A stretch of DNA of 64,000 bases from Verrucomicrobia bacterium LP2A (GTDB lineage: Bacteria > Verrucomicrobiota > Verrucomicrobiia > Methylacidiphilales > Methylacidiphilaceae): positions 434,001-498,000 of the forward strand of contig JAFS01000001.1 of assembly GCA_000526255.1 (NCBI GenBank), given 5' to 3'. Shown here piece after piece: positions 28,142 through 39,920 of the stretch. Position 1 is the first letter of the stretch; the number at the start of each line of letters is the position of its first letter. The position numbers and the translations under genes were made by a program. The notes below the pieces were generated by a model, which was given only the letters and a program-made list of their open reading frames with translations, was not told where the DNA came from and ran no database searches.

Positions 28142-28264
28142 ATGCGTCCGACGTAAGGGACACTCTACGTTCGGCTCGAACTTTGGCGCAACCAAAAAGC
28201 CTGCGGGATCGGGAAATCTGCGGAGGGAGGCATCGGCGTCTTGTCACTCTCCGTACCCCTTGAT

Positions 28265-29374
28265 ATGAGGGAGGTTGTGAAGATCAAGGGTCTTATCGTT
28301 TTCGGCTTCCCGCACGGGAGAGGATGGACGATCGCCACGGTGATCGCGGCTGCATGGCTTTTCGCGGGGAATCGGGGAGATGCCGCTACCGCCTACGTGA
28401 GCTCGGAGCCGGTCGGAGTGGTCGCAATCGATTTGGGGAAGATGACGGTGATTCGGCGCTTTGCCCTGCCGAAGTCGAGCCCGCGTGGAATCGGAGTCAC
28501 TCGGGATGGCCGCTTTGTCGTGACCGCCAACAAGGCTACCCAGGACGTTGCGGTGATCGACCTCAGGAGCGGGCATCTGCTGCGGCGGATTCCGATTGGT
28601 CCCAAGCCCGAGTTCCTCAAGTTTAGCCCGGACGGGCGGCGGTTCTTCGTCGCCCATGAGCCGGCGTCGGAGGGTGCGCCGCCCAAGCGACCACCGAGCG
28701 AGGAGGAAAGAAAGATGCAAGAAGCGGCGGCGGCAAGGACCCCCGCGCGGATCGTCGAGATCGACGTCGAAAGCTGGAAGGTCGTGCGGAGCTTTCCCGC
28801 GAGCGTCGATACCGAGGGGATCGAGCTTTCCGCCGACGGGAAAAGGCTCCTGTGCGCGAACGAATCGGAAGATTCGCTGCGGGTCTACGACTTGGAGAGC
28901 GGCGGCGAGGTCCAGCGCGTCGATCTCCGTCCGCACGGCAGCCGTCCGCGAGGGGTCAAGCGCTCTCCCGATGGGAACGAGTACCTGGTCTCGCTCGAGA
29001 GTTCGAGCAACGTGGTCGTGCTCGACAAGGATCTCCACTTCGTCGCTTCGGTACCGACCGGGGCTGGCCCGTATGGAATTTCTTTTGATCCGGAAGGTAA
29101 ATATTTCCTCGTGGCCGCGTCTCGCGCCAAGAAGCTGCAGGTCTTCGACGCCAAGAGCCGGAAGCTCCTCCGGGAGATGCCGCTCGGAGAGCGTTGCTGG
29201 CATTTTAGCTTTACACCCGACGGAGAGAAGATCTTGGCCGCCTGCGGGCGTTCCAACGAGGTGCTGGTTTTCGACGCCAAGAGCTATCGGCTGCTCAAGG
29301 TCTTGGGAGGAATTCGCTTGCCTTGGGGGGTCTTCACCTATCCGCGCGCCTACGGGACCCTCGATCTTCCCTAA
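28265..29374 (+). CDS. Exported YVTN-type beta-propeller protein
   Basis: 369 residues. A signal sequence (GWTIATVIAAAWLFAGNRGDAA) leads into six or seven propeller blades with repeated patterns such as GVVAIDLGKMTVIRRF, DVAVIDLRSGHLLRRIPIG and LRVYDLESGGEVQRVDL. The protein resembles the beta-propeller proteins associated with PQQ-dependent alcohol metabolism, and it sits next to the xox cluster, convergent with its last gene. A charged insert (PPKRPPSEEERKMQEAAAA) interrupts one blade. A role in methanol oxidation is inference; a general YncE-like protein is the alternative. The ATG at 28265 lacks a good ribosome site; a GTG at about 28277 lies right behind GGGAGG. Confidence 0.75.
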   Translation: MREVVKIKGLIVFGFPHGRGWTIATVIAAAWLFAGNRGDAATAYVSSEPVGVVAIDLGKMTVIRRFALPKSSPRGIGVTRDGRFVVTANKATQDVAVIDLRSGHLLRRIPIGPKPEFLKFSPDGRRFFVAHEPASEGAPPKRPPSEEERKMQEAAAARTPARIVEIDVESWKVVRSFPASVDTEGIELSADGKRLLCANESEDSLRVYDLESGGEVQRVDLRPHGSRPRGVKRSPDGNEYLVSLESSSNVVVLDKDLHFVASVPTGAGPYGISFDPEGKYFLVAASRAKKLQVFDAKSRKLLREMPLGERCWHFSFTPDGEKILAACGRSNEVLVFDAKSYRLLKVLGGIRLPWGVFTYPRAYGTLDLP

Positions 29375-29380
29375 GTCCTC

Positions 29381-30175
29381 CTACCGATACCAAGCTTTCC
29401 ATTCGACGTGGAGTGTTGTGTTTCCCTGGAGGGCGTAGACCCGCTGGAAGTGCCACCAGACCGTACTCCCCTGGATTCGATACCCGGCAGGAAGAACCCG
29501 GGTTACCTGATTGGTGAGAAATTCCTGGAAGGTGGGCGGAGGGGCGCCCCCCATGCCAAAGGCGGGGGCCTGGCGGAAGGAGGCATACATTTTGCCGAGG
29601 TCGACGACGATCCAATAGTCGTTGATTGGAGGCCGCCAGCCGCCCCATTGGATCGAATCCTCGAAGAAATCGATCTTCTGCCGGGGATCTCGGGGAAGGA
29701 CCCGTTGGAGGGTGTCGGTGCGAAGCTCGGTTGACCGGCCGCCCCGAAAGGTCAGGTAGTCCCAATACCGGTTGCCGATCCTCGATACCGGAAGCGACTT
29801 CCCGTCGATCGAATCCCGGTATTCGAGATAGGGTTGCTGGGGGAGCTCGTCGTGATAGGTGGGAAGTACGGCGGTGGAGCCGAAGTTACGGAACCGGTAG
29901 AGGAAAATCTCCCGCAGCAGCGGTTCGCGTCCCCCGTTCTCTCCCGAAGAGAGAGAGAGGGTGTAGTACTTCCGAACGGAGACGAGTTGAATCCTCTGTG
30001 CGCAAAGGGACGGAGCCGCGCAGAGGATGGCAAGAGCAAAGAAAAGGAAGGCCAACCCCTGCTGCGGCAAGCCATCGACGCGCTTTCCTTCCGGTCGCCC
30101 GGGGAGAGGAGGCGAGGCGGCCGAGAAGAAAGCCAGAGCGACCGTTTCGAGAACGAGCCTTCCGCTCAGCTTCAT
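29381..30175 (-). CDS. Secreted protein of unknown function at the end of the xox cluster
   Basis: 264 residues, family not recognised. The N-terminal part has a hydrophobic segment (GLAFLFFALAILCAAPSLCA, about residues 40-59) that would act as a signal peptide with cleavage after the Ala-containing site; the true start may therefore be internal. The mature part is rich in Tyr, Trp and Arg and looks beta-structured (YRFRNFGSTAVLPTYHDELP, WWHFQRVYALQGNTTLHVEW). It follows xoxG by 25 bases, so it is probably cotranscribed with xoxF-xoxJ-xoxG and active in the periplasm. Confidence 0.65.
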   Translation of the reverse strand: MKLSGRLVLETVALAFFSAASPPLPGRPEGKRVDGLPQQGLAFLFFALAILCAAPSLCAQRIQLVSVRKYYTLSLSSGENGGREPLLREIFLYRFRNFGSTAVLPTYHDELPQQPYLEYRDSIDGKSLPVSRIGNRYWDYLTFRGGRSTELRTDTLQRVLPRDPRQKIDFFEDSIQWGGWRPPINDYWIVVDLGKMYASFRQAPAFGMGGAPPPTFQEFLTNQVTRVLPAGYRIQGSTVWWHFQRVYALQGNTTLHVEWKAWYR

Positions 30176-30200: not shown

Positions 30201-30704
30201 CTACCAGTTCCGAAGCTTGGGATCCCCGTGATAGATCGAGCGAACGTAGGCGATCACCTTCCAGATCTCGTCGTCGCTCATGACGCTACCGAACGGTGGC
30301 ATCGGAGCAACGACGTTCTCGCGTCCGATGCGCGTGTAGCCCTTCTTCTGGAGCTCGACGGTCCCGTTCTTGATCAACTCGAAGAGGGTCTTGTCTTCGC
30401 TGCCGTAGACCCACGTATCATTGATCACGGGAGGACACATGCCTCCGCCTCCCATGCCCCCGTGGCAGCCGTTGCAGCTTCGGCTGAACCAGAGCTTTCT
30501 CCCTTCGGCAATCGCCTGCGGGTTGTCGGTGTACGGGTTCTTCATCGCTCCTCCAGCGGCCGAAGCGGGCTGTTGCCCGGCCGGTGCGGGGGCCGATGGG
30601 GGTGCCGCGGGCGGCTGCTGCGCCCCAGCGGCGGTCAGCCAGAGGCAGGCCAAGCCCGGCAGCAGATAACGTGTCCCAGAAGCAGTGCGTTTTCCTCTCT
30701 TCAT
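30201..30704 (-). CDS. xoxG: Cytochrome c, XoxG-like electron acceptor of methanol dehydrogenase
   Basis: 167-residue periplasmic monohaem cytochrome c. A signal peptide ends near AAGAQQ, followed by a Pro/Ala/Gln-rich linker (about residues 30-52). The haem site is Cys77-Asn-Gly-Cys80-His81 and the likely distal methionine lies in APMPPFGSVMSDDEIW. Position directly after xoxF and xoxJ supports the role of taking electrons from XoxF. In Methylacidiphilum fumariolicum SolV the cytochrome and XoxJ are one fused protein; here they are separate genes 37 bases apart. Confidence 0.85.
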   Translation of the reverse strand: MKRGKRTASGTRYLLPGLACLWLTAAGAQQPPAAPPSAPAPAGQQPASAAGGAMKNPYTDNPQAIAEGRKLWFSRSCNGCHGGMGGGGMCPPVINDTWVYGSEDKTLFELIKNGTVELQKKGYTRIGRENVVAPMPPFGSVMSDDEIWKVIAYVRSIYHGDPKLRNW

Positions 30705-30741: not shown

Positions 30742-32361
30742 TTACTGGGTGGGAGGCGTAGTCTTCTTTGTCGGGCTGCTCGCTCTTTCCAAGAGGGAAG
30801 CGAGATTTTGGTAGCCCCTTTCCTGCGCGAGGGCAAGCGCCGTCTTCCCTTCACGGTTTCGCTGGTCCGGACGGGCGCCCGCGCGCAGAAGAAGTTCAAC
30901 GATCGGCGGCCGGTTGCGAGAGACCGCCAGCATGAGCGGGGTAATGCCCGCCGGATTCGCAGCGTTGGGGTCCGCACCCTTGTCTAGCAGTGTCCGAACC
31001 GCGGCTTCGGGACCGGAAGTCGCCGCAAACATCAAGGGGGTGTAGCCTCCCGGTCCGCTCTTCCCGTTCACCGGAACCCCATGAGCCAGCAGAATCTGGA
31101 TGAGCTCGGGATCCGAGCCGCTCGCCGCAAGGGAGAGGGGAGCCCATCCGTCCCTGGCGGTCGCGGTAGCGTTCGCGCCGTGGTCGAGCAGGAGACGGGT
31201 CGTATCCCGACTCCCTTTGGAAATTGCGAAGAGAAGGGGGGTCCAACCCTCGGGGTCGGGCAGGTTGGGGTTGGCTCCCTTGTCCAGGAGAAGCCGGACC
31301 ATCGGCCATTCTTCGGTGCGAATGGCGTTCAGGAGGGGGGTGTAGCCGAGCGGGTCCTTTTCGTCGATCGCCTTCGGGTCCTTGGCGATGAACCGCTCGG
31401 CGGCGGGAAGGTCATCGGCCGTGACACAGTCGAGCAGGGAAGCGTGTTCGGTCGGCGCAGCCGGGTGCGCCGCCGCAGGAGGGGGGAGGGGCTTGTAGCC
31501 GCCGGAATGCGCGGGAAGATCGCCATCCACGATGCATTCCGGACAGTGGACGAGCGGCACGCCATACTCGGTCAAGATCCGGCGGATCTCGCCCTTGTGC
31601 TCTTCCATCGTGCGGTTGAGACCGTCACGGAGGCTCTTGTCCCCCTTGGGAACGGCGAGCGCCATGGCGTATTCGAGCGGAATGGTCTCCTCCATCGTGT
31701 TGAGTGGGGTAAGGTCGAGGGGAGCGTTCGCCTTGGCGACGTAGTAGCCGGCCAAGGGTCCCCAGATCGCGCAGGCATCGAGCGTTCCCGCGATCACCTG
31801 CTCGACCTGCTCGGCGGGATGCTGCTCCGGGTGGACCCGTGAGTCGTAAAAGATGTAGTGGACAACCGTGTTGTGCTGAATGCCGTGGTTGCGGAGCGCA
31901 TCGCGTGCTGCCGAGGCCTGGAAGACGCCGATCCGGAGGCTCTTGAGGATCGGGTCGTCGAGAGAGTGAATGTGGAGGTTCCGATCCTTTCGGGTAACGA
32001 GAACGAAGGTCGATTTGTAGTAAGGTTTGGTTGGCAGAGCCAATTCGAAGTCGGGCGGCATGTCGAAGAGGACATCGCAGCGGTTCGCGTTGAGGGTCGT
32101 CCGGACAAGCCCCCGTTCGTAGTAGGTGTACCAGAAGTATTCGAGCGGCTTACCCATGGAGCGGGCGAGCAGCTCCGCGATCTTGTTCTGGAATCCCTCT
32201 CCGCGGCTGTTGGAAAGGGGCATGTTGCCCGGGTCGCCGCAGACCCGTAGGGGAAGCTCAGCCGGCTGGGCCGGGACGGCGGAAGGCGAAGCCAGAAAGA
32301 GAAAGAGAAAGAGGGCGGACCAACCCCCGTGGACCAGTCCGCCCTTTCCCGTTAGATGCAT
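30742..32361 (-). CDS. xoxJ: XoxJ-like periplasmic binding protein fused to ankyrin repeats
   Basis: 539 residues. After a signal peptide (WSALFLFLFLASPSAVPA), residues about 35-285 match the quinoprotein-dehydrogenase-associated solute-binding family: LPLRVCGDPGNMPLSN, GKPLEYFWYTYYERGL, CDVLFDMPPDFE and a paired-cysteine segment HCPECIVDG. After a Pro/Ala linker come about six ankyrin repeats marked by GYTPLLNAI, GWTPLLFAI, GWAPLSLAA, GYTPLMFAA, GITPLMLAV and GKTALALAQ. XoxJ is thought to assist XoxF maturation or activation. The ankyrin half is in frame with no stop or shift and is an unusual addition. It starts 21 bases after xoxF. Confidence 0.88.
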   Translation of the reverse strand: MHLTGKGGLVHGGWSALFLFLFLASPSAVPAQPAELPLRVCGDPGNMPLSNSRGEGFQNKIAELLARSMGKPLEYFWYTYYERGLVRTTLNANRCDVLFDMPPDFELALPTKPYYKSTFVLVTRKDRNLHIHSLDDPILKSLRIGVFQASAARDALRNHGIQHNTVVHYIFYDSRVHPEQHPAEQVEQVIAGTLDACAIWGPLAGYYVAKANAPLDLTPLNTMEETIPLEYAMALAVPKGDKSLRDGLNRTMEEHKGEIRRILTEYGVPLVHCPECIVDGDLPAHSGGYKPLPPPAAAHPAAPTEHASLLDCVTADDLPAAERFIAKDPKAIDEKDPLGYTPLLNAIRTEEWPMVRLLLDKGANPNLPDPEGWTPLLFAISKGSRDTTRLLLDHGANATATARDGWAPLSLAASGSDPELIQILLAHGVPVNGKSGPGGYTPLMFAATSGPEAAVRTLLDKGADPNAANPAGITPLMLAVSRNRPPIVELLLRAGARPDQRNREGKTALALAQERGYQNLASLLERASSPTKKTTPPTQ

Positions 32362-32382: not shown

Positions 32383-34245
32383 TTACTGCACGCAGAAGGT
32401 GTAGAGCGTGCCGCCCATCGGGATGTTGTAGAACCCATTTTCCCCGGCCATGCCGGCGACGCCGAGCGCGCCGTAGGGATCCGCTGGGTCGAGGCCCGCG
32501 GTCACCGGGAGTCCGATCCAGCCGCCGATGCCGGTCAGGATCGAAATATACTGCTTGCCGCCCACCTCGAAGGAGATCGGGTTGCCGATGATGCCGGAAC
32601 CGAGCTTCTGCTGCCAGAGGACCTTGCCGGTCTTCCGGTCAACCGCGCGGAACCAGCCGTCAAGGGTGCCGTAAAAGGCGAGCCCGCCATCGGTGACCAA
32701 GGCGCCGCTCCAGGTCGGGAAGCGCTCCGGAATGTCCCAGCGAGCCTTGCCTGTGATCACGTCGAACGCCTTGAAGCGGCCCATGACTCCGGGCTTTTCC
32801 GGCTTCATCAGAACGTTGGCGAAGACGTAGACGCTACCCTGGTTGGTGTGAGCGCGCTCCATCGGCTCCAGCGTCATCCCCCAGTTATTGGTGGGGGCAT
32901 AGAAGACGTTGGCTTCCTTGGGATCGACGGCGACCGGCTGCTGGTCCTTTCCGCCCTGAGCTGAGGGGTAGGCCTGCACGGCCTTGCCGACCTCGAACGG
33001 AGAATGCTCCTTGACCTTGACCGGGCGGCCCGTCTTCATGTCGATCTTCTCGGCCCAGTTGACCGTCACGAACTTGTTGGCGCGGATGAGCGTGCCGTCC
33101 GTGCGGCTGAGGACGTAGGCGAAGCCGTTGCGGTCGAAGTGGACCAGGCAGGGCTTCTTGGCGCCGTCGACGGTGATGTCGACGAGCACATCCTCGTTGA
33201 TGGCGTCATAATCCCACTGGTCGAACGGGGTGAGCTGGTAGCCCCAGACGGCTTCGCCCGTGTCAGGCTTGCGGGCAAAGACGGTCATCGACCACTTGTT
33301 GTCCCACTTCCAGGGCTCATTGGCCTCCTCGTGGGTCTTGGCCTCGGTCCGGTAGCTGGGGCTCCAGAGACCGGGATTGCCCGTGTTGTAATAGACCAGA
33401 TCGAGCTTCGGATCATAGCTATACCAACCCCAGGCGCAGCCTCCACCCCGCTTCCACTCTTCGTCAGGGTAGGTCTTGACGCCGAGATCCTGGCCGGCCT
33501 GCCCGTACTCGGGATGCTTGCTGTTGAAGTCGGGGCCGAGGAGCACGTCCGAGTCGGGACCGTTGCTGTAGGCCTGCCAGACCATCTTGCCCGAGTTGAG
33601 ATCGAAGGCGGCGAAGCGGCCTCGCGCGCCGAACTCGTCGCCACCGTAACCGGTGAAGACCTTGTCCTTGACGATGATCGGGGCGGGAGTGCTTGTCTCA
33701 CCCTTGTTGAGATCAGCAAACTTGGTCTTCCAGAGCTCCTTCCCGGTGTTGGCATCCAAGCAGACGACGTAGCCGTCGAGGGTGTTGAAGACGACCTTTC
33801 CGTCGGCGTAGGAAGCGCCACGGTTCACCGTGTCGCAGCAGGCGGTCGAGACCGCCTTGTCATCCTGCCTCGGAACGTACTTCCAAAGGACTTCGTAGGA
33901 CCCCCCCTTGGAGAGGTCGAGCGCCCACACGATGTTGGGATACGAGCTCACCACGTACATGCGGTCGCCGACGACGAGCGGCTGCCCTTCATGGCCGCGG
34001 AGCGTGCCCGTCGAGAACGACCAAGCCATATGCAGGCTCTTGACGTTCTGCGTGTTGATCTGCTTCAGGGACGAGTGCCGGGTGTTGGCGTAATCTTTGC
34101 CCGGAGCCGCCCAGTTCTTGGGATTCTCCGTGAGCTTCAAAACATCGTCGTTGGAATAGGCTGACGGAATCACCGTCGCGGTACCGACCGCCAGTGCCAG
34201 GAGCATCCCGGCAGAGAGCTTCTTCCTACTTTTCGGGAACCTCAT
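32383..34245 (-). CDS. xoxF: Lanthanide-dependent methanol dehydrogenase XoxF
   Basis: 620-residue PQQ-dependent methanol dehydrogenase, periplasmic, oxidising methanol to formaldehyde or formate. A signal peptide (GMLLALAVGTATVIPSAYS) precedes an eight-bladed propeller. The vicinal disulfide is Cys136-Cys137 (STACCDTVNRG). The metal and PQQ ligands are visible: Glu183 (KGETSTP), an Asn in YYNTGNPG, Asp345 (catalytic) and Asp347 in FDQWDYDAINE. The extra Asp347 is the mark of lanthanide-type XoxF rather than calcium-type MxaF. The start at 34245 is fixed by a strong GGAGGAGGTTACCAA site; 16 residues upstream read in frame but cross that site. Heads xoxF-xoxJ-xoxG. Confidence 0.97.
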   Translation of the reverse strand: MRFPKSRKKLSAGMLLALAVGTATVIPSAYSNDDVLKLTENPKNWAAPGKDYANTRHSSLKQINTQNVKSLHMAWSFSTGTLRGHEGQPLVVGDRMYVVSSYPNIVWALDLSKGGSYEVLWKYVPRQDDKAVSTACCDTVNRGASYADGKVVFNTLDGYVVCLDANTGKELWKTKFADLNKGETSTPAPIIVKDKVFTGYGGDEFGARGRFAAFDLNSGKMVWQAYSNGPDSDVLLGPDFNSKHPEYGQAGQDLGVKTYPDEEWKRGGGCAWGWYSYDPKLDLVYYNTGNPGLWSPSYRTEAKTHEEANEPWKWDNKWSMTVFARKPDTGEAVWGYQLTPFDQWDYDAINEDVLVDITVDGAKKPCLVHFDRNGFAYVLSRTDGTLIRANKFVTVNWAEKIDMKTGRPVKVKEHSPFEVGKAVQAYPSAQGGKDQQPVAVDPKEANVFYAPTNNWGMTLEPMERAHTNQGSVYVFANVLMKPEKPGVMGRFKAFDVITGKARWDIPERFPTWSGALVTDGGLAFYGTLDGWFRAVDRKTGKVLWQQKLGSGIIGNPISFEVGGKQYISILTGIGGWIGLPVTAGLDPADPYGALGVAGMAGENGFYNIPMGGTLYTFCVQ

Positions 34246-34402
34246 TTGGTAACCTCCTCCGTTTGGGTTGCGGGAGTTCTGCCCTGTGGGCACTTCTCCT
34301 CAAGCTGCAAGGGAGGCGATAACTTCTTTGCGGGTGACGGTCAAGCGCAAAAATGGCACTACTGAGTAAATCAGATGAAGGGGCAAAAGCCGGATGGCCA
34401 AG

Positions 34403-34582: not shown

Positions 34583-35965
34583 TTATCCGGCCCCGATGCC
34601 GTGCTTTTCCATCCGGTAGCGAAGGATGTCCCGGGTCATCCCCAGTTGGCGGGCGGCTTGGGAGATGTTCTGTCCCGAGGCGACCAGCGCCTGCTGGAGC
34701 AGCCGTTTTTCGACCTCGGCGAAGGAGAGTCCTTCCTGCAAAAGCAGCCGGATTGCATCGTGGGAAGTGGCTGGCGCCCGCACCGCCCCACCGGCCAGAT
34801 GCCCTGGCCAAGCAAAGTCCGCCGGGTTCAGGGTTTCTTCTTTCGACCAGAGGACCGCTTGCTCGATCGCGTGCGAAAGCTCGCGAACATTCCCCGGCCA
34901 GGGATACCGCTGCAAGGTCGCGAGGGCGTCCGGAGCCAATATGCGGCCCATCTTTCCGTACCGGGTGCCGTGGATGCGGAGGAAGTGATTCGCCAGCAGA
35001 AGGATGTCGCCGGAACGCTCCCGCAAGGGAGGCAACTCGAGATGAACGACGCGGAGCCGATAGTAGAGATCGGCTCGAAAGGTTCCTTCCCGAATCGAGG
35101 TTTCCAGGGGCCGGTTGGTTGCGGCGAGAATCCAAGGATCGACCTTCCGATCGCGAACGCTTCCCAGGCGCCGGACCGTTTTGTGTTCGATCGCCGTCAG
35201 GAGCTTCCCTTGCAGGGGGAGGGGGAGATCCCCAATCTCGTCGAGAAAGAGGGTGCCTTTGTCTGCGGCTTCCATCAGTCCGAGCTTAGCCCCTGAGGCG
35301 CCGGTGAAAGCCCCCCGCTCGTAGCCGAAGAGCTCGGTTTCCACCAGGTTTTCCGGAAGCGCAACGCAATTGATGGACAGGAAGGCCTCGTCTCGACGAA
35401 GGCTCCGATGGTGGAGGAGTCGGGCCACCACATCCTTCCCGGTGCCGGTCTCTCCGGAGATCAAAACGGTGGGGAGCCCTTGGCTTCCGTCGAGTCGGCT
35501 CAGCTGCTCGATCTTTTCGCGCAGAGAGCGGATCGCTGAGGACTCGCCGATCAGGATCGGCTCGTCGAGACTCCGGTAGTAGGCGAGCTCCTGCTTGAGA
35601 CGGACGGTCTCCTCGACCCGGTCAACCAGCACGCGCAGCCGGTCGAGGTCGAGGGGCTTTTGAAGATATTCGAAGGCGCCGAGCTTCATGACGGCGACCG
35701 CGTCCTCGACGGAGGCATAGGCGGTGAAGACTACGGCCAATAAGGCGGGATGGATGGCCCGCACCCGGCGGAGGAGCTCGGGTCCTGAGAGGCTCGGCAG
35801 CCGCGCGTCGAGGAGAAGCAGGTCGGGAGCGGAAAGCTCGGCTTGCCGAAGACCTTCGCCGCCGTCGAAGGCCAGAGCGACTTCGTGGCCTTGGGCCGTG
35901 AGAAGCTCGCGGATCGATCGGGCGAGGTTTCGTTCGTCCTCAACCAGGAGAATGTTGAGCCCCAT
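34583..35965 (-). CDS. Sigma54-dependent response regulator (NtrC/AtoC type)
   Basis: 460 residues. Receiver domain with phospho-acceptor Asp53 (LLLLDARLP) and Lys103; AAA+ domain with Walker A GETGTGKD (171-178), the sigma54-contact loop GAFTGA (218-223) and Walker B TLFLDEIGD; C-terminal Fis-type helix-turn-helix (NISQAARQLGMTRDILRYRM). Its start overlaps the upstream histidine-kinase gene by 26 bases. It lies directly upstream of xoxF on the same strand, so xox regulation is a candidate role. A GC-rich hairpin (34565-34582) follows the stop but has no T tract. Confidence 0.93.
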   Translation of the reverse strand: MGLNILLVEDERNLARSIRELLTAQGHEVALAFDGGEGLRQAELSAPDLLLLDARLPSLSGPELLRRVRAIHPALLAVVFTAYASVEDAVAVMKLGAFEYLQKPLDLDRLRVLVDRVEETVRLKQELAYYRSLDEPILIGESSAIRSLREKIEQLSRLDGSQGLPTVLISGETGTGKDVVARLLHHRSLRRDEAFLSINCVALPENLVETELFGYERGAFTGASGAKLGLMEAADKGTLFLDEIGDLPLPLQGKLLTAIEHKTVRRLGSVRDRKVDPWILAATNRPLETSIREGTFRADLYYRLRVVHLELPPLRERSGDILLLANHFLRIHGTRYGKMGRILAPDALATLQRYPWPGNVRELSHAIEQAVLWSKEETLNPADFAWPGHLAGGAVRAPATSHDAIRLLLQEGLSFAEVEKRLLQQALVASGQNISQAARQLGMTRDILRYRMEKHGIGAG

Positions 35966-37412
35966 CGCTGCCTTCGGTGGCGGAGGGGAAGAGCAGGGTG
36001 ATACGTGTTCCCTGGCCGCGCCGGCTCTTCACCGTCATCTCTCCTCCGTTTCGGCTAACGTACCGTTCCACGATGGCCAGACCCAAGCCCGAACCTTCGG
36101 GCCGTGTCGTGAAAAAGGGCTCGGTCACGCGAGGGAGATGCTCCTCGGCAATTCCTTCGCCATCGTCTTCGATTTCCAGGTGGACCCGACCGTCTGGTCG
36201 AACACCCGAGCTCAGGCGGATGCGGCCGCGCTCGCCGACGGCCGCAAGCGCATTCGCTAGAATTTCGAGAAGGACCTGCTCCATCTGAGCCGGATCAAAA
36301 CGCACCAGTGGAAGATCTGGGTTCAGGGAGAGATCGATCCCGACGTCCTTCCCTTCGCCTTTGGCCAGAGACGGCACGATAGTTTCGGCGAGCTCATTGA
36401 GGCTGCCGACGATGGGTCTCGGAGAAAGGGGTTTGGCGAAGGTCAATAGCTGGCGGACCCGGTGGTCGAGCCGATCGGCTTCGTGGACAATTTCTCGGAG
36501 GGTATCCCCAGCCGAAACCGAAGGGTCGGCCTTGAGGAGAGCGACTTGCGCCAGCGCCCGAATGCTCGCCAAAGGGTTGCGAATCCCATGGGCGACTGCG
36601 GCGGCGGTGGCGCCGATGGAGGCCATCCGCTCGGTCTGGACGATCTTCTCCTGCGAATCCTTGATCTCGCTTGCCATCTGGCGGAAGGCCAAGGCGAGGT
36701 CACGGAGATCCCCCGAGGGAGGAATTTCCGGAACAACCTCGCGCTCCCCGCGGCCAATGCGCCGTGCGGATTCGACCAGGTTGCGCAAGGGACGTCCGAT
36801 CCCCTGGGTGAGCCAGAGCGAGACGAGTGCCGCCAGCCCCAGTCCAGCAAGAAAGCAGAGCGGAACCAGGAGTGCTGCGGTCTCCTTGAGGAAGCGGGCC
36901 TTCTCCCGGGCCCGCTCGATGGCCCCTTGGTGGAAAAGTCGTTCGAGCGTTCGGACCGACTGGCGGAACGGGCCGTCCAAGAAGGCTTCCCGAGCGTCGA
37001 CTCCGGCAAACAAAGGATCGCTCCCCGGAAGGTCGGGCTGGTCGAGCAGCATCCGGCCATGCCTTTCGAGCAGCAGGGCATTTCCCTCGACGACATCCAG
37101 CGCCTCCTTTTCCTCCTTCCCGTGAGCAAGGGAACGGCAGCGGGCCAGGAGCACGCGCATCTGATCGGCGAAAGAAAAGAACTGGGCGCGGGCCTTGGGA
37201 TCCTTGCCCCCGAGGGCATCGGCCACTTCGGCGACCTCGCGTTGCGCGAAGAGCTCGAGATCACCCAGCTGCGAAAGCTGGGTCAGCTCCTCTCCCACCT
37301 GCTCGACCTGCTTTTGGCCTTGCCGCGCGATCCAGGCGGCCTCGACGGAGAGCGCTGCCGCCAGGACGAAGAAGACGCCCGAAGCGAGGCGGATCCGCGT
37401 TGCGATCTTCAC
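35940..37412 (-). CDS. Membrane sensor histidine kinase
   Basis: 490 residues. Two membrane helices (about 8-28 and 180-202) bracket a mostly helical sensor region of about 150 residues rich in Glu, Arg and Leu, like four-helix-bundle sensors. Then a HAMP segment (IGRPLRNLVESARRIGRGE), HisKA with His275 (VAHGIRNPLASIRALAQ), and HATPase motifs N (EILANALAAVGE), G1 (DDGEGI) and G2 (GSGLGLAIV). It partners the overlapping NtrC-type regulator. The signal is unknown; a position between a TonB receptor and xoxF makes metal or methanol status possible. Confidence 0.92.
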   Translation of the reverse strand: MKIATRIRLASGVFFVLAAALSVEAAWIARQGQKQVEQVGEELTQLSQLGDLELFAQREVAEVADALGGKDPKARAQFFSFADQMRVLLARCRSLAHGKEEKEALDVVEGNALLLERHGRMLLDQPDLPGSDPLFAGVDAREAFLDGPFRQSVRTLERLFHQGAIERAREKARFLKETAALLVPLCFLAGLGLAALVSLWLTQGIGRPLRNLVESARRIGRGEREVVPEIPPSGDLRDLALAFRQMASEIKDSQEKIVQTERMASIGATAAAVAHGIRNPLASIRALAQVALLKADPSVSAGDTLREIVHEADRLDHRVRQLLTFAKPLSPRPIVGSLNELAETIVPSLAKGEGKDVGIDLSLNPDLPLVRFDPAQMEQVLLEILANALAAVGERGRIRLSSGVRPDGRVHLEIEDDGEGIAEEHLPRVTEPFFTTRPEGSGLGLAIVERYVSRNGGEMTVKSRRGQGTRITLLFPSATEGSDGAQHSPG

Positions 37413-37469: not shown

Positions 37470-39920
37470 TCAAAACTGGAGGCGGACGCCGCCCCAGACG
37501 CCGAAGGGGGATCCCGGCGTGACGAACGGAACGATGGTTCCGCCGTTTGGGGCTCCCGTAAAGACGTTCTGGCTGATGAGGCCAGCACTCGCGTATTGCT
37601 CATCGTAGACATTGGTCGCAAAGGCAAAGATCTGACAATGCTTGTTGAGCGTGTAATAGGTTTGAATGTTGAGGAGGGCGTAGCCGGTCAGCATCGGGTA
37701 GACGTTGGCCCAATCTCCATAGAGGACGCGGCTCGAGTAATATTGGCAATCCATCGAGATCTGCCACTGGGGCAGGATCTGGTAGGTGATTCCCGCTTTG
37801 ACCATCTGCTGGGGCAAGTTCGACAGCCGATTTCCCGGCTGGACGGGGACTGCTGGGCTCACGGCGTTCTGTAGGACGAGCGGGCTTTGAAAGGTCGCCT
37901 CAAGGAAGGACCAGTTCGCGAACCAGGTGAGCTTCTTGTAGCTGCCCTGGAGAGTGACTTCGACGCCCTGATTTTGCTCTGAGCCGATGTTCTGGAAAAA
38001 CCCGGCGCTCGAGTGGCCGGTCTGCTCAAACTGGATATTGTTGGAGAGGTTGCTCTGGTAGAACGAGAACGCCCAGGCAACGTTTCCCGGAGTGAGATTG
38101 CCTCGGAAGCCGCTTTCATAGGTCTGGACGAGCACGGGGGAGAGGGCGGGATCGCCCAGCTGGGCGACCGGCAGGATCACCGGAATCGCGGGATTGGCTC
38201 CGGTGATCTCGCCCACCATGGGCGGCCGGAAGCTTTCGCTATAGTTGAAGAAGAAGGTGAGATCCTTGAGGGTCGGGTCGGAAACACCGAAGGCGGCGAG
38301 CGGCTGCAGGGTGAAGCCCGCAGCGGGGGTGACCTGCTGAAAGCGCTCGGCCGCCGCGAGGGAAACCGTCTCGCCGGTGGTGTTTACGCCTGTTCCGCCG
38401 ATCATCATCTGCGCATAGTTGTCCCGCAAGGCCCCCGTCAGATGGAACCAGGGTGTGGGCGAAAAGGTGTCGGTCAGGTAGAGGCCAACGTAGTCGCTGA
38501 AGGTCGGCACGGAGAACTGATCCTGGAAGGGATATCCCGGAATCGTGACGTTGTTGTAATTGGGGCCCATCGCGGCTTGGTAGTATCCCGAGCTAAAGAA
38601 GCACTGGGCCCAATCGAAGCTTGCGCCCGCTACCGCGTAATTCTCCATCCCGGCGAAGCTCTTTTCCCACTGGAGCTGGAGCCGGGCGCCCGCGCCCGTC
38701 TGGGCGATCGAGCCGAAATCCCATTCGCCCGCTGGGATCGGGATCCCGCTGGGATTGAGTGCCTGTGCGGCGAGCGGGTAGTTGAAGCCTAAGAACTGAT
38801 CGACGTTGTTGGCGACATTGCCGTTGCTGAAGTTGTAGTTCGACTGGCGGAAGTAGGCGTTGCCCCCCAAGGTCAGCTCATCGGTGAGCTTTTGCGAGGC
38901 GAGCAGGTTGACCATGTTGAGATTGTCGTATTGTGGATTGGGCCCCGTGTAGATCATGGAGTTGCCTCCGGTGGCCACCATGTCGATCGGGGTGGGGCCG
39001 AGAATGTTGATGAGGTTGTCCGCGCCGCTGTATTCCAAGTGAACGTCGGTCTCCTCTGTATGGTAGCCGACCTTGGCGAAGAGCTGTTTGACGTAGCTCG
39101 AGCTCTGCTGCCGCCAGCCGTCCTGGCTCATCCAGTTGCCGCTGAGGAACCAGTCCCACTTTCCCTTGTAGCCTCCATGCTGGAATTCCAGGTCGTTGGT
39201 GCCCCAGACCCCCGCGTAGTCCTGAAGCATCGAGCCCGGGCTGGTCCTTCCGTTCTTGGTCTGCATCACGAGGGCTCCCCCCAGGGTGTTCTGGCCGTAG
39301 ATCGGGTTGGAGCCCGGGACCATCTCCATGTTCTGGATGGCGAGCTGGGGAACGTAGTCCCAAAGGAGGTTATTCGTAAACGGCTCATTGATCCGGACGC
39401 CGTCCAAGAAGACGGAAATGCCGACCGGCGTTCCCGGAACGGGCGAGGCGGCGAAGCCGCGGTAGTTGATGTTGGGAAGGAAGGGATTCCCGTTCATGTT
39501 GACCTCGTTGACGCTCGCCATGTTCCGCTCCATGAACTGGGGCAGGCTGAACTCCTCTTGTTGGAGCCAGGTCTTCCCCTGCTGGATCTGATAATTGCCG
39601 GGGAGATTCTGGAGCGGCTGGCCCATTCCGGGCAGAGGGGTGACGGCGACGACCTCGACCTCGGGGAGCTGGGACATCGTCTTTTCCAGATCGGATTGGC
39701 CTTTGCCCGCGTCCTTCGGCTGCTGGAGGGCGCTACGGAGCTTGCGGTCGCTTGGGGAGCTCACGGGTGGCGGATCGGCGGTGCCGGTGCCTCCGACGGA
39801 TGCACTCGCCGGGTCGTCGACCTCTTGGGCGAAGGAACTGGGTAGAGCGAAGGCGGCAAGAAGCAGATGGAGAAGCGGAAGGAGGAGGACCGGCAAAAGA
39901 GGTCGTCGGAATCGCGGCAT
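37470..39920 (-). CDS. TonB-dependent outer-membrane receptor
   Basis: 816 residues. Signal peptide (PVLLLPLLHLLLAAFALPSSFA), a TonB-box-like VEVVAVTP near residue 90, a plug domain (about 100-230, with FLDGVRINEPF and PIYGQNTLGGALVMQTKNG) and a beta-barrel ending in the aromatic tail WGGVRLQF. TonB receptors import iron chelates, cobalamin, nickel or, in some methylotrophs, lanthanides. It lies 57 bases upstream of the kinase-regulator pair and on the same strand as xoxF. That suggests but does not show lanthanide uptake. Confidence 0.9.
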   Translation of the reverse strand: MPRFRRPLLPVLLLPLLHLLLAAFALPSSFAQEVDDPASASVGGTGTADPPPVSSPSDRKLRSALQQPKDAGKGQSDLEKTMSQLPEVEVVAVTPLPGMGQPLQNLPGNYQIQQGKTWLQQEEFSLPQFMERNMASVNEVNMNGNPFLPNINYRGFAASPVPGTPVGISVFLDGVRINEPFTNNLLWDYVPQLAIQNMEMVPGSNPIYGQNTLGGALVMQTKNGRTSPGSMLQDYAGVWGTNDLEFQHGGYKGKWDWFLSGNWMSQDGWRQQSSSYVKQLFAKVGYHTEETDVHLEYSGADNLINILGPTPIDMVATGGNSMIYTGPNPQYDNLNMVNLLASQKLTDELTLGGNAYFRQSNYNFSNGNVANNVDQFLGFNYPLAAQALNPSGIPIPAGEWDFGSIAQTGAGARLQLQWEKSFAGMENYAVAGASFDWAQCFFSSGYYQAAMGPNYNNVTIPGYPFQDQFSVPTFSDYVGLYLTDTFSPTPWFHLTGALRDNYAQMMIGGTGVNTTGETVSLAAAERFQQVTPAAGFTLQPLAAFGVSDPTLKDLTFFFNYSESFRPPMVGEITGANPAIPVILPVAQLGDPALSPVLVQTYESGFRGNLTPGNVAWAFSFYQSNLSNNIQFEQTGHSSAGFFQNIGSEQNQGVEVTLQGSYKKLTWFANWSFLEATFQSPLVLQNAVSPAVPVQPGNRLSNLPQQMVKAGITYQILPQWQISMDCQYYSSRVLYGDWANVYPMLTGYALLNIQTYYTLNKHCQIFAFATNVYDEQYASAGLISQNVFTGAPNGGTIVPFVTPGSPFGVWGGVRLQF

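Follow-up and report, generated by a model that had tools for sequence, protein, structure and literature searches.

A XoxJ protein with a C-terminal ankyrin-repeat domain, encoded beside XoxF1-type methanol dehydrogenases

The closest described relatives of the protein considered here are XoxJ of Methylorubrum extorquens AM1 (6onp) and MxaJ, the latter solved on its own account (5sv6) and, going by entry titles and molecule names, in complex with its dehydrogenase (MxaF/MxaJ, 9ism and 9iso), although we found no publication on the 9ism complex in the open-access literature. Both share a homologous J domain with our protein, but their chains leave no room for an ankyrin arm: 6onp is 284 residues long and matches over residues 38-271 only, and the MxaJ chains are 291-300 residues long. 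MxaF/MxaJ is a calcium system, and the partner dehydrogenase of 6onp presumably belongs to another XoxF clade. On methanol with La, losing xoxJ is reported to have the same effect in M. extorquens as losing both xoxF genes, and the protein is described as interacting with XoxF and perhaps activating it (PMC7391723, in part). A J-domain fusion likewise exists in another lineage: in the XoxF2 system of Methylacidiphilum, XoxGJ (cytochrome cGJ) joins a cytochrome to a partial J domain, and a plain XoxJ is encoded separately (PMC8498564, in part). The first-pass annotation had described XoxJ of M. fumariolicum SolV as fused to the cytochrome, which is right as to the cytochrome and its partial J domain but overlooks the separate xoxJ. 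Methylacidimicrobium thermophilum AP8 has the gene order of the locus described below (cirA, two genes, xoxF1, xoxJ, xoxG), and its xoxF1, xoxJ, and xoxG are transcribed; the xoxJ product (MTHMO_v1_1701) is termed a periplasmic substrate-binding protein, and the word "ankyrin" occurs nowhere in the main text of that report (PMC7907005). Within the open-access literature, we found no report tying XoxJ or MxaJ to ankyrin repeats.

The locus lies in a 64,000-nucleotide stretch of the Verrucomicrobia bacterium LP2A genome (contig JAFS01000001.1, positions 434,001 to 498,000), which we call the window and whose own numbering is used throughout. The gene xoxJ-ank (30742..32361, minus strand) is one uninterrupted frame of 539 residues with no internal stops, 21 nt downstream of xoxF on the same strand and 37 nt upstream of a separate 167-aa gene for a xoxG-like cytochrome c (30201..30704, minus strand). 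Profile searches gave no J-domain match in this cytochrome, unlike a fusion of the XoxGJ type. The XoxJ-Ank product begins with a signal peptide region, read by eye (residues 1-32; 32266..32361, minus strand), followed by a XoxJ/MoxJ solute-binding-like domain (residues 38-271; 31549..32250, minus strand) that matches TIGR03871, the family of quinoprotein-dehydrogenase-associated binding proteins, at 272.8 bits (E 2.4e-81; curated cut-off 212.15). A junction motif, CPECIVDGDLPAHSGGY (residues 273-289; 31495..31545, minus strand), and a variable Pro/Ala linker at about residues 291-304 (31450..31491, minus strand) lead into the ankyrin domain (residues 305-528; 30778..31449, minus strand), where Pfam Ank_2 scores 129.1 bits (E 9.5e-38; cut-off 27.3). 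The top PDB sequence matches of the whole product are ankyrins, and XoxJ 6onp aligns over residues 33-271. The open reading frame, TIGR03871, and Ank_2 agree in supporting the annotated architecture, a XoxJ protein joined in frame through a Pro/Ala linker to a C-terminal ankyrin domain.

An AlphaFold2 model built on 45 aligned XoxJ-Ank sequences (mean pLDDT 87.8) predicts the J domain confidently, leaves the linker disordered with pLDDT below 50 at residues 297-303, and shows seven ankyrin helix pairs within residues 309-528, so that the earlier count of about six repeats becomes seven. The pTM of 0.55 leaves the relative placement of the J and ankyrin domains open. The J half of the model matches XoxJ 6onp (Z 25.9 over 209 residues, 36% identity; phmmer E 6.9e-39) and MxaJ 5sv6 (Z 26.4), as well as MxaJ in the MxaF/MxaJ complex (9ism_B), and the ankyrin half matches DARPins and ankyrins, among them 6moj (Z 28.9 over 219 residues). 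The product is XoxJ/MoxJ by its profile score, its adjacency to xoxF, and its match to solved folds, and its C-terminal half is an ankyrin repeat domain by its Pfam score and its stacked helix-turn-helix repeats.

The fusion is not an artifact of one assembly. XoxJ-Ank is encoded in all seven genomes of the genus, which the gene order shared with AP8 and the XoxF match to 7o6z (below) indicate to be Methylacidimicrobium, at 80-94% identity to the window protein, and a single frame runs through the junction in each, with one contig (G003) starting at residue 199, ahead of the junction. A stop between the two domains or a frame error joining two genes was looked for and not seen in these seven genomes. 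Together with the fusion's presence at 54 of 80 related loci (below), this rules out a frame error or misassembly. By the Nei-Gojobori method, over 15 pairs from six genus genomes (G003 left out), dN/dS is 0.48 in the signal peptide, as against 0.062 in the J domain and 0.13 in the whole ankyrin domain, these ratios being rough because dS is high, at about 0.9 in both the J and the ankyrin domain. Repeats 1-4 of the ankyrin domain vary more (dN/dS 0.145, identity 0.75, versus 0.062 and 0.91 for the J domain), and the last three repeats stand at 0.09. By these ratios, both the J domain and the ankyrin domain are under purifying selection.

The architecture is not confined to the genus. In a scan of genome contigs, we kept the best 80 loci of at least 527 relatives, a sample in which clades far from the query are under-represented and ORF lengths are taken from the earliest possible start codon, some being overlong upstream. 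A C-terminal ankyrin domain is present at 54 of these loci and absent from 25, and one (L110) is cut by a contig end. The 54 include Gammaproteobacteria (Xanthomonas, Rhodanobacteraceae, Hydrocarboniphaga, Solimonas), Alphaproteobacteria (Hyphomicrobium, Methyloceanibacter, Methylocella), Betaproteobacteria (Methylophilaceae), Candidatus Methylomirabilis, and Methylacidimicrobium, which rules out an invention of Methylacidimicrobium alone. The search among relatives that the first-pass annotation had proposed thus returned the same architecture; its reading of the product as a XoxJ joined to protein-binding repeats holds, and a signal peptide precedes both, but its scope was too narrow, the fusion being no local oddity and occurring in three proteobacterial classes and Methylomirabilis as well. 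J proteins from the sister genera are plain, with ORFs of 297-306 and 360 aa, and share only 40-42% identity with the window protein; the gammaproteobacterial ones found in the scan share about 47-61% and extend past the J domain. A phylum sample of 387 genomes had eight matches above the cut-off and a long ORF in only two, both of the genus, and by itself would have made the fusion look genus-specific. Class samples, which make up only partly for the under-sampling of distant clades, gave the ankyrin form in none of 28 alphaproteobacterial and in three of 35 gammaproteobacterial genomes with a XoxJ above the cut-off (centre genomes left out of both; seven of the 39 non-centre gammaproteobacterial matches were classed by ORF length alone, at 374 aa or less). 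Among the matches listed from plasmids (20 of 442 records), alignments end at residues 269-277. One ORF of 1028 aa in Methyloceanibacter marginalis (L102) runs from XoxJ-Ank into a second exported-looking protein, but in this one genome the reading frame appears to shift past the end of the ankyrin domain, and the ORF is not counted as Rosetta-stone evidence.

What the ankyrin domain follows is the neighboring dehydrogenase. The xoxF gene of the window (32383..34293, minus strand) encodes a methanol dehydrogenase with a GGDEFG sequence that places Asp at position 172 and a WDYD motif; its product matches 7o6z over residues 17-636 (1410 bits, 620 residues), the next best being 4mae at 708 bits. 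We take 7o6z to be the AP8 XoxF1 structure and 4mae to be a XoxF2. Position 172 is described as diagnostic for XoxF1 (PMC8546591, in part), and by Asp172 and the closest match the window enzyme is assigned to the XoxF1 clade on sequence grounds. A XoxF was seen at 53 of the 54 ankyrin loci of the scan, the remaining one (L131) starting too late to show one. Identity to the window XoxF1 is 55-68% for the XoxF of ankyrin loci beyond the genus (53% for a 78-residue fragment at L112), 42-52% for XoxF proteins that neighbor a plain XoxJ in the scan, and 51-53% for those that do so in the sister genera. For residue 172 we compared 54 ankyrin rows, made up of the window, five genus loci, and 48 scan loci; genus repeats (L074-L076), loci with too little XoxF (L112, L119, L131), and L073, which has no XoxJ of its own, were left out. 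The residue is Asp in 38 and Asn in 16 of these rows, Gly in all 30 plain-XoxJ rows and all seven XoxF2 rows of the genus, and Ala in L110. Asp172 alone is therefore no strict mark of XoxF1, given Asn in 16 of 54 ankyrin rows and Ala in L110 inside the XoxF1 clade. On a XoxF tree of 74 rows, taken from the sampled loci with no targeted addition of XoxF4, XoxF5, or MxaF (19 of 93 aligned rows dropped as presumed near-copies; L073 and L110 unlabelled), the ankyrin label changes once, on a branch with support 100/100, the tree being unrooted, with no outgroup, so that gain and loss of the domain look alike on it. In loci gathered later, which partly repeat the same genes (24 ankyrin and 84 no-ankyrin XoxJ), Asp or Asn occupies the position in 13 of 13 readable ankyrin loci and in none of 16 readable others. 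XoxJ-Ank occurs with XoxF1 at every locus whose neighbor could be scored. The same separation appears inside single genomes: each of the three gammaproteobacterial genomes with the ankyrin form has a XoxF1-like neighbor for it (57-60% identity, Asp172) and a plain XoxJ as well, and in Hyphomicrobium G441 two ankyrin XoxJ accompany XoxF1, with other dehydrogenases accompanied by two plain J proteins, of which one scores under the TIGR03871 cut-off. Because the two forms coexist in these genomes, the ankyrin domain follows the dehydrogenase clade rather than the organism. XoxJ-Ank combines two known parts, a J protein and a repeat domain, and we found no description of this clade-tracking pairing in the open-access literature.

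Two further features separate these systems. The junction between the J domain and the linker has the consensus C-x-x-C-x-V-S-G-D-L-P-S-H-x-G, with C273, C276, and G280 invariant in all 45 aligned XoxJ-Ank sequences. A pattern search recovered the junction in 24 of 24 ankyrin and 0 of 84 no-ankyrin J proteins, and by eye the CxxC is absent from the displayed tails of the 25 no-ankyrin scan loci. In XoxF1, the alignment reveals a clade-specific loop insert at about residues 318-329 of the window protein (33307..33342, minus strand), a few residues past the GNP motif, whose Asn we take to be a lanthanide ligand, which would put the loop near the lanthanide site. The loop is 22-33 residues long in all 54 XoxF1 sequences and 10-11 in all 37 others; it holds two Cys in each of eight displayed sequences from outside the genus and none in two displayed from Methylacidimicrobium. 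Junction motif and loop insert are sequence markers by which XoxF1 systems can be recognized independently of Asp172.

The reading we prefer, though we hold it tentatively and would not be surprised to see it fail, is that XoxJ-Ank is the J partner of XoxF1, with a J half that docks on and activates the enzyme and an ankyrin arm that makes a second contact, most likely with XoxF1 too. The J half would dock on XoxF1 as MxaJ docks on MxaF and, once docked, would help to convert apo-enzyme into active holo-enzyme through the loading of PQQ, lanthanide, or both. The ankyrin half would serve as a flexibly tethered second arm that grips a folded periplasmic partner, most probably XoxF1 itself and possibly at the clade-specific loop beside the lanthanide site, and this grip would either keep XoxJ on the XoxF1 clade or make it selective for that clade. 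XoxF1 is the likeliest ankyrin partner because every scored ankyrin locus has one. Among the partners suggested in the first-pass annotation (XoxF, XoxG, and the product of 29381-30175), XoxF1 fits the distribution best, XoxG is possible, and the third is unlikely. Covariation singled out no partner: in mirror-tree comparisons on 29 of 41 loci, partial correlations were 0.10 for the ankyrin domain with XoxF, 0.015 with XoxG, and 0.55 with the J domain, and conservation within the ankyrin domain peaks mostly at positions of the structural consensus. Co-inheritance as one cluster would in any case yield the identical phylogenetic pattern whichever protein the ankyrin domain binds. A more specific version, which we regard as quite unlikely, is that XoxF1 is matured by a dedicated two-armed chaperone. 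In it, opening or loading of the cofactor site would fall to the J domain, the ankyrin arm would hold the loop found only in XoxF1 (disulfide-capable in the displayed lineages outside the genus), and the invariant CxxC junction would act as a redox or structural switch between the two arms. For the activation of quinoprotein methanol dehydrogenases by J proteins, and for the differences among XoxF clades, a binding domain that tracks one clade offers a concrete handle.

The ankyrin arm might instead hold the cytochrome XoxG beside XoxF1, as an electron-transfer scaffold with the role that the fused XoxG-J has in the sister genera. We consider this unlikely. In its favor, the sister genera (g2, g3) have a cytochrome with a partial J domain and a plain XoxJ, and Methylacidimicrobium has a plain cytochrome and a XoxJ with ankyrin repeats. 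A xoxG match is also present at 44 of the 51 evaluable ankyrin loci (three of the 54 being too short to tell). The other seven, alphaproteobacterial where titled, have neither a XoxG match nor a CxxCH candidate within 3.9-4.5 kb downstream, a location elsewhere being possible, and XoxG does without an ankyrin arm at 21 of the 25 no-ankyrin scan loci, which were counted irrespective of any J domain on the cytochrome.

Rather improbable, too, is that the arm anchors or oligomerizes XoxJ, binds some other periplasmic factor (for PQQ delivery, as a lanthanide carrier, or in the envelope), or protects the enzyme against oxidative or acid stress. Ankyrin repeats are general protein-binding modules, Pseudomonas aeruginosa AnkB with the catalase KatB is a case of a periplasmic ankyrin aiding an oxidoreductase, and the AlphaFold2 model and the genus comparison agree on an ankyrin domain that folds separately on a variable linker. 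Yet among eight window genes besides xoxJ that were sought at the ankyrin loci, xoxF alone recurs at 53 of 54.

Very unlikely, in our judgment, is an ankyrin domain that is a passive stabilizer or a relic with no binding partner. The greater variation of repeats 1-4 relative to the J domain would suit a relic, but the domain persists in 54 loci across classes and phyla, its dN/dS is low overall and lower still in the last three repeats, and the 74-row tree has a single change with no loss of the domain seen inside the clade. Scarcely credible is the 264-aa product of 29381-30175 as ankyrin ligand: its gene shares the strand of xoxJ-ank, lies 25 nt downstream of xoxG, and is also found downstream at genus loci, but tblastn matches to it occur at none of the 77 scan loci outside the genus (L077-L153), and in a phylum sample of 288 genomes its protein family was seen in only 5, each belonging to the taxonomic family of the window, this genome alone having 11 matches.

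That gene (29381-30175, minus strand) encodes a protein with a hydrophobic N-terminal stretch and no Pfam or NCBIfam match, and its AlphaFold2 model, from four sequences only, has a mean pLDDT of 36.4. The family is multi-copy: some of the 11 matches in this genome form a tandem cluster, with paralogues at G000:C1:763707-767072, C1:425645, and C2:255527; G008 has nine, and G004 has a second copy, 45% identical, upstream of xoxF1 (L047:5878-6504). Convergent with the xox genes is a YVTN-type beta-propeller gene (28241-29374, plus strand) resembling the PQQ-associated TIGR03866 below its cut-off, and distant propeller matches (22-29%) occur in many other loci, with and without the ankyrin domain. 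Between xoxF1 and a TonB-dependent receptor lie genes for a sigma-54 response regulator and a histidine kinase (34583-37412 and 37470-39920, both minus strand), an arrangement kept in G002, G004, and G005; regulator, kinase, and receptor form a candidate lanthanide-sensing and uptake unit.

This genome has a second XoxF1 gene, 96% identical to that of the window (G000:C1:711477-713117; L073, L270), and two XoxF1 at 96% identity are on record for Methylacidimicrobium sp. LP2A (PMC8498564, in part). The second gene here adjoins a 25-residue match to the response-regulator gene of the window, no xoxJ or xoxG match was found beside it within the 14 kb taken, and it is probably a recent duplication without a XoxJ of its own. 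XoxF2 of the genus (G000:C1:398108-399703, L066/L267; L060, L061, L062, L064, L065, L067) reads W-G-Y-D in 7/7, and XoxF1 and the XoxF2 of g2 and g3 read W-D-Y-D. The Asp pair of the latter motif corresponds to Asp299 and Asp301 of SolV XoxF2 (PMC8546591, in part); in our reading of the alignment, the Gly would fall at the Asp299 equivalent. None of five XoxF2 neighborhoods (L267, L268, L269, and two that contig ends cut short, L271 and L272) contains a XoxJ, XoxG, or XoxGJ match, and the one TIGR03871 match in each of the seven genus genomes is XoxJ-Ank. A genus XoxF2 without a J protein nearby fits a role of J proteins in activating working enzymes. In AP8, xoxF2 expression is given as 85-fold below that of xoxF1 (PMC7907005, in part). 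Because of the W-G-Y-D motif, the empty neighborhoods, and this lower expression, XoxF2 of the genus may be a non-catalytic or regulatory copy.
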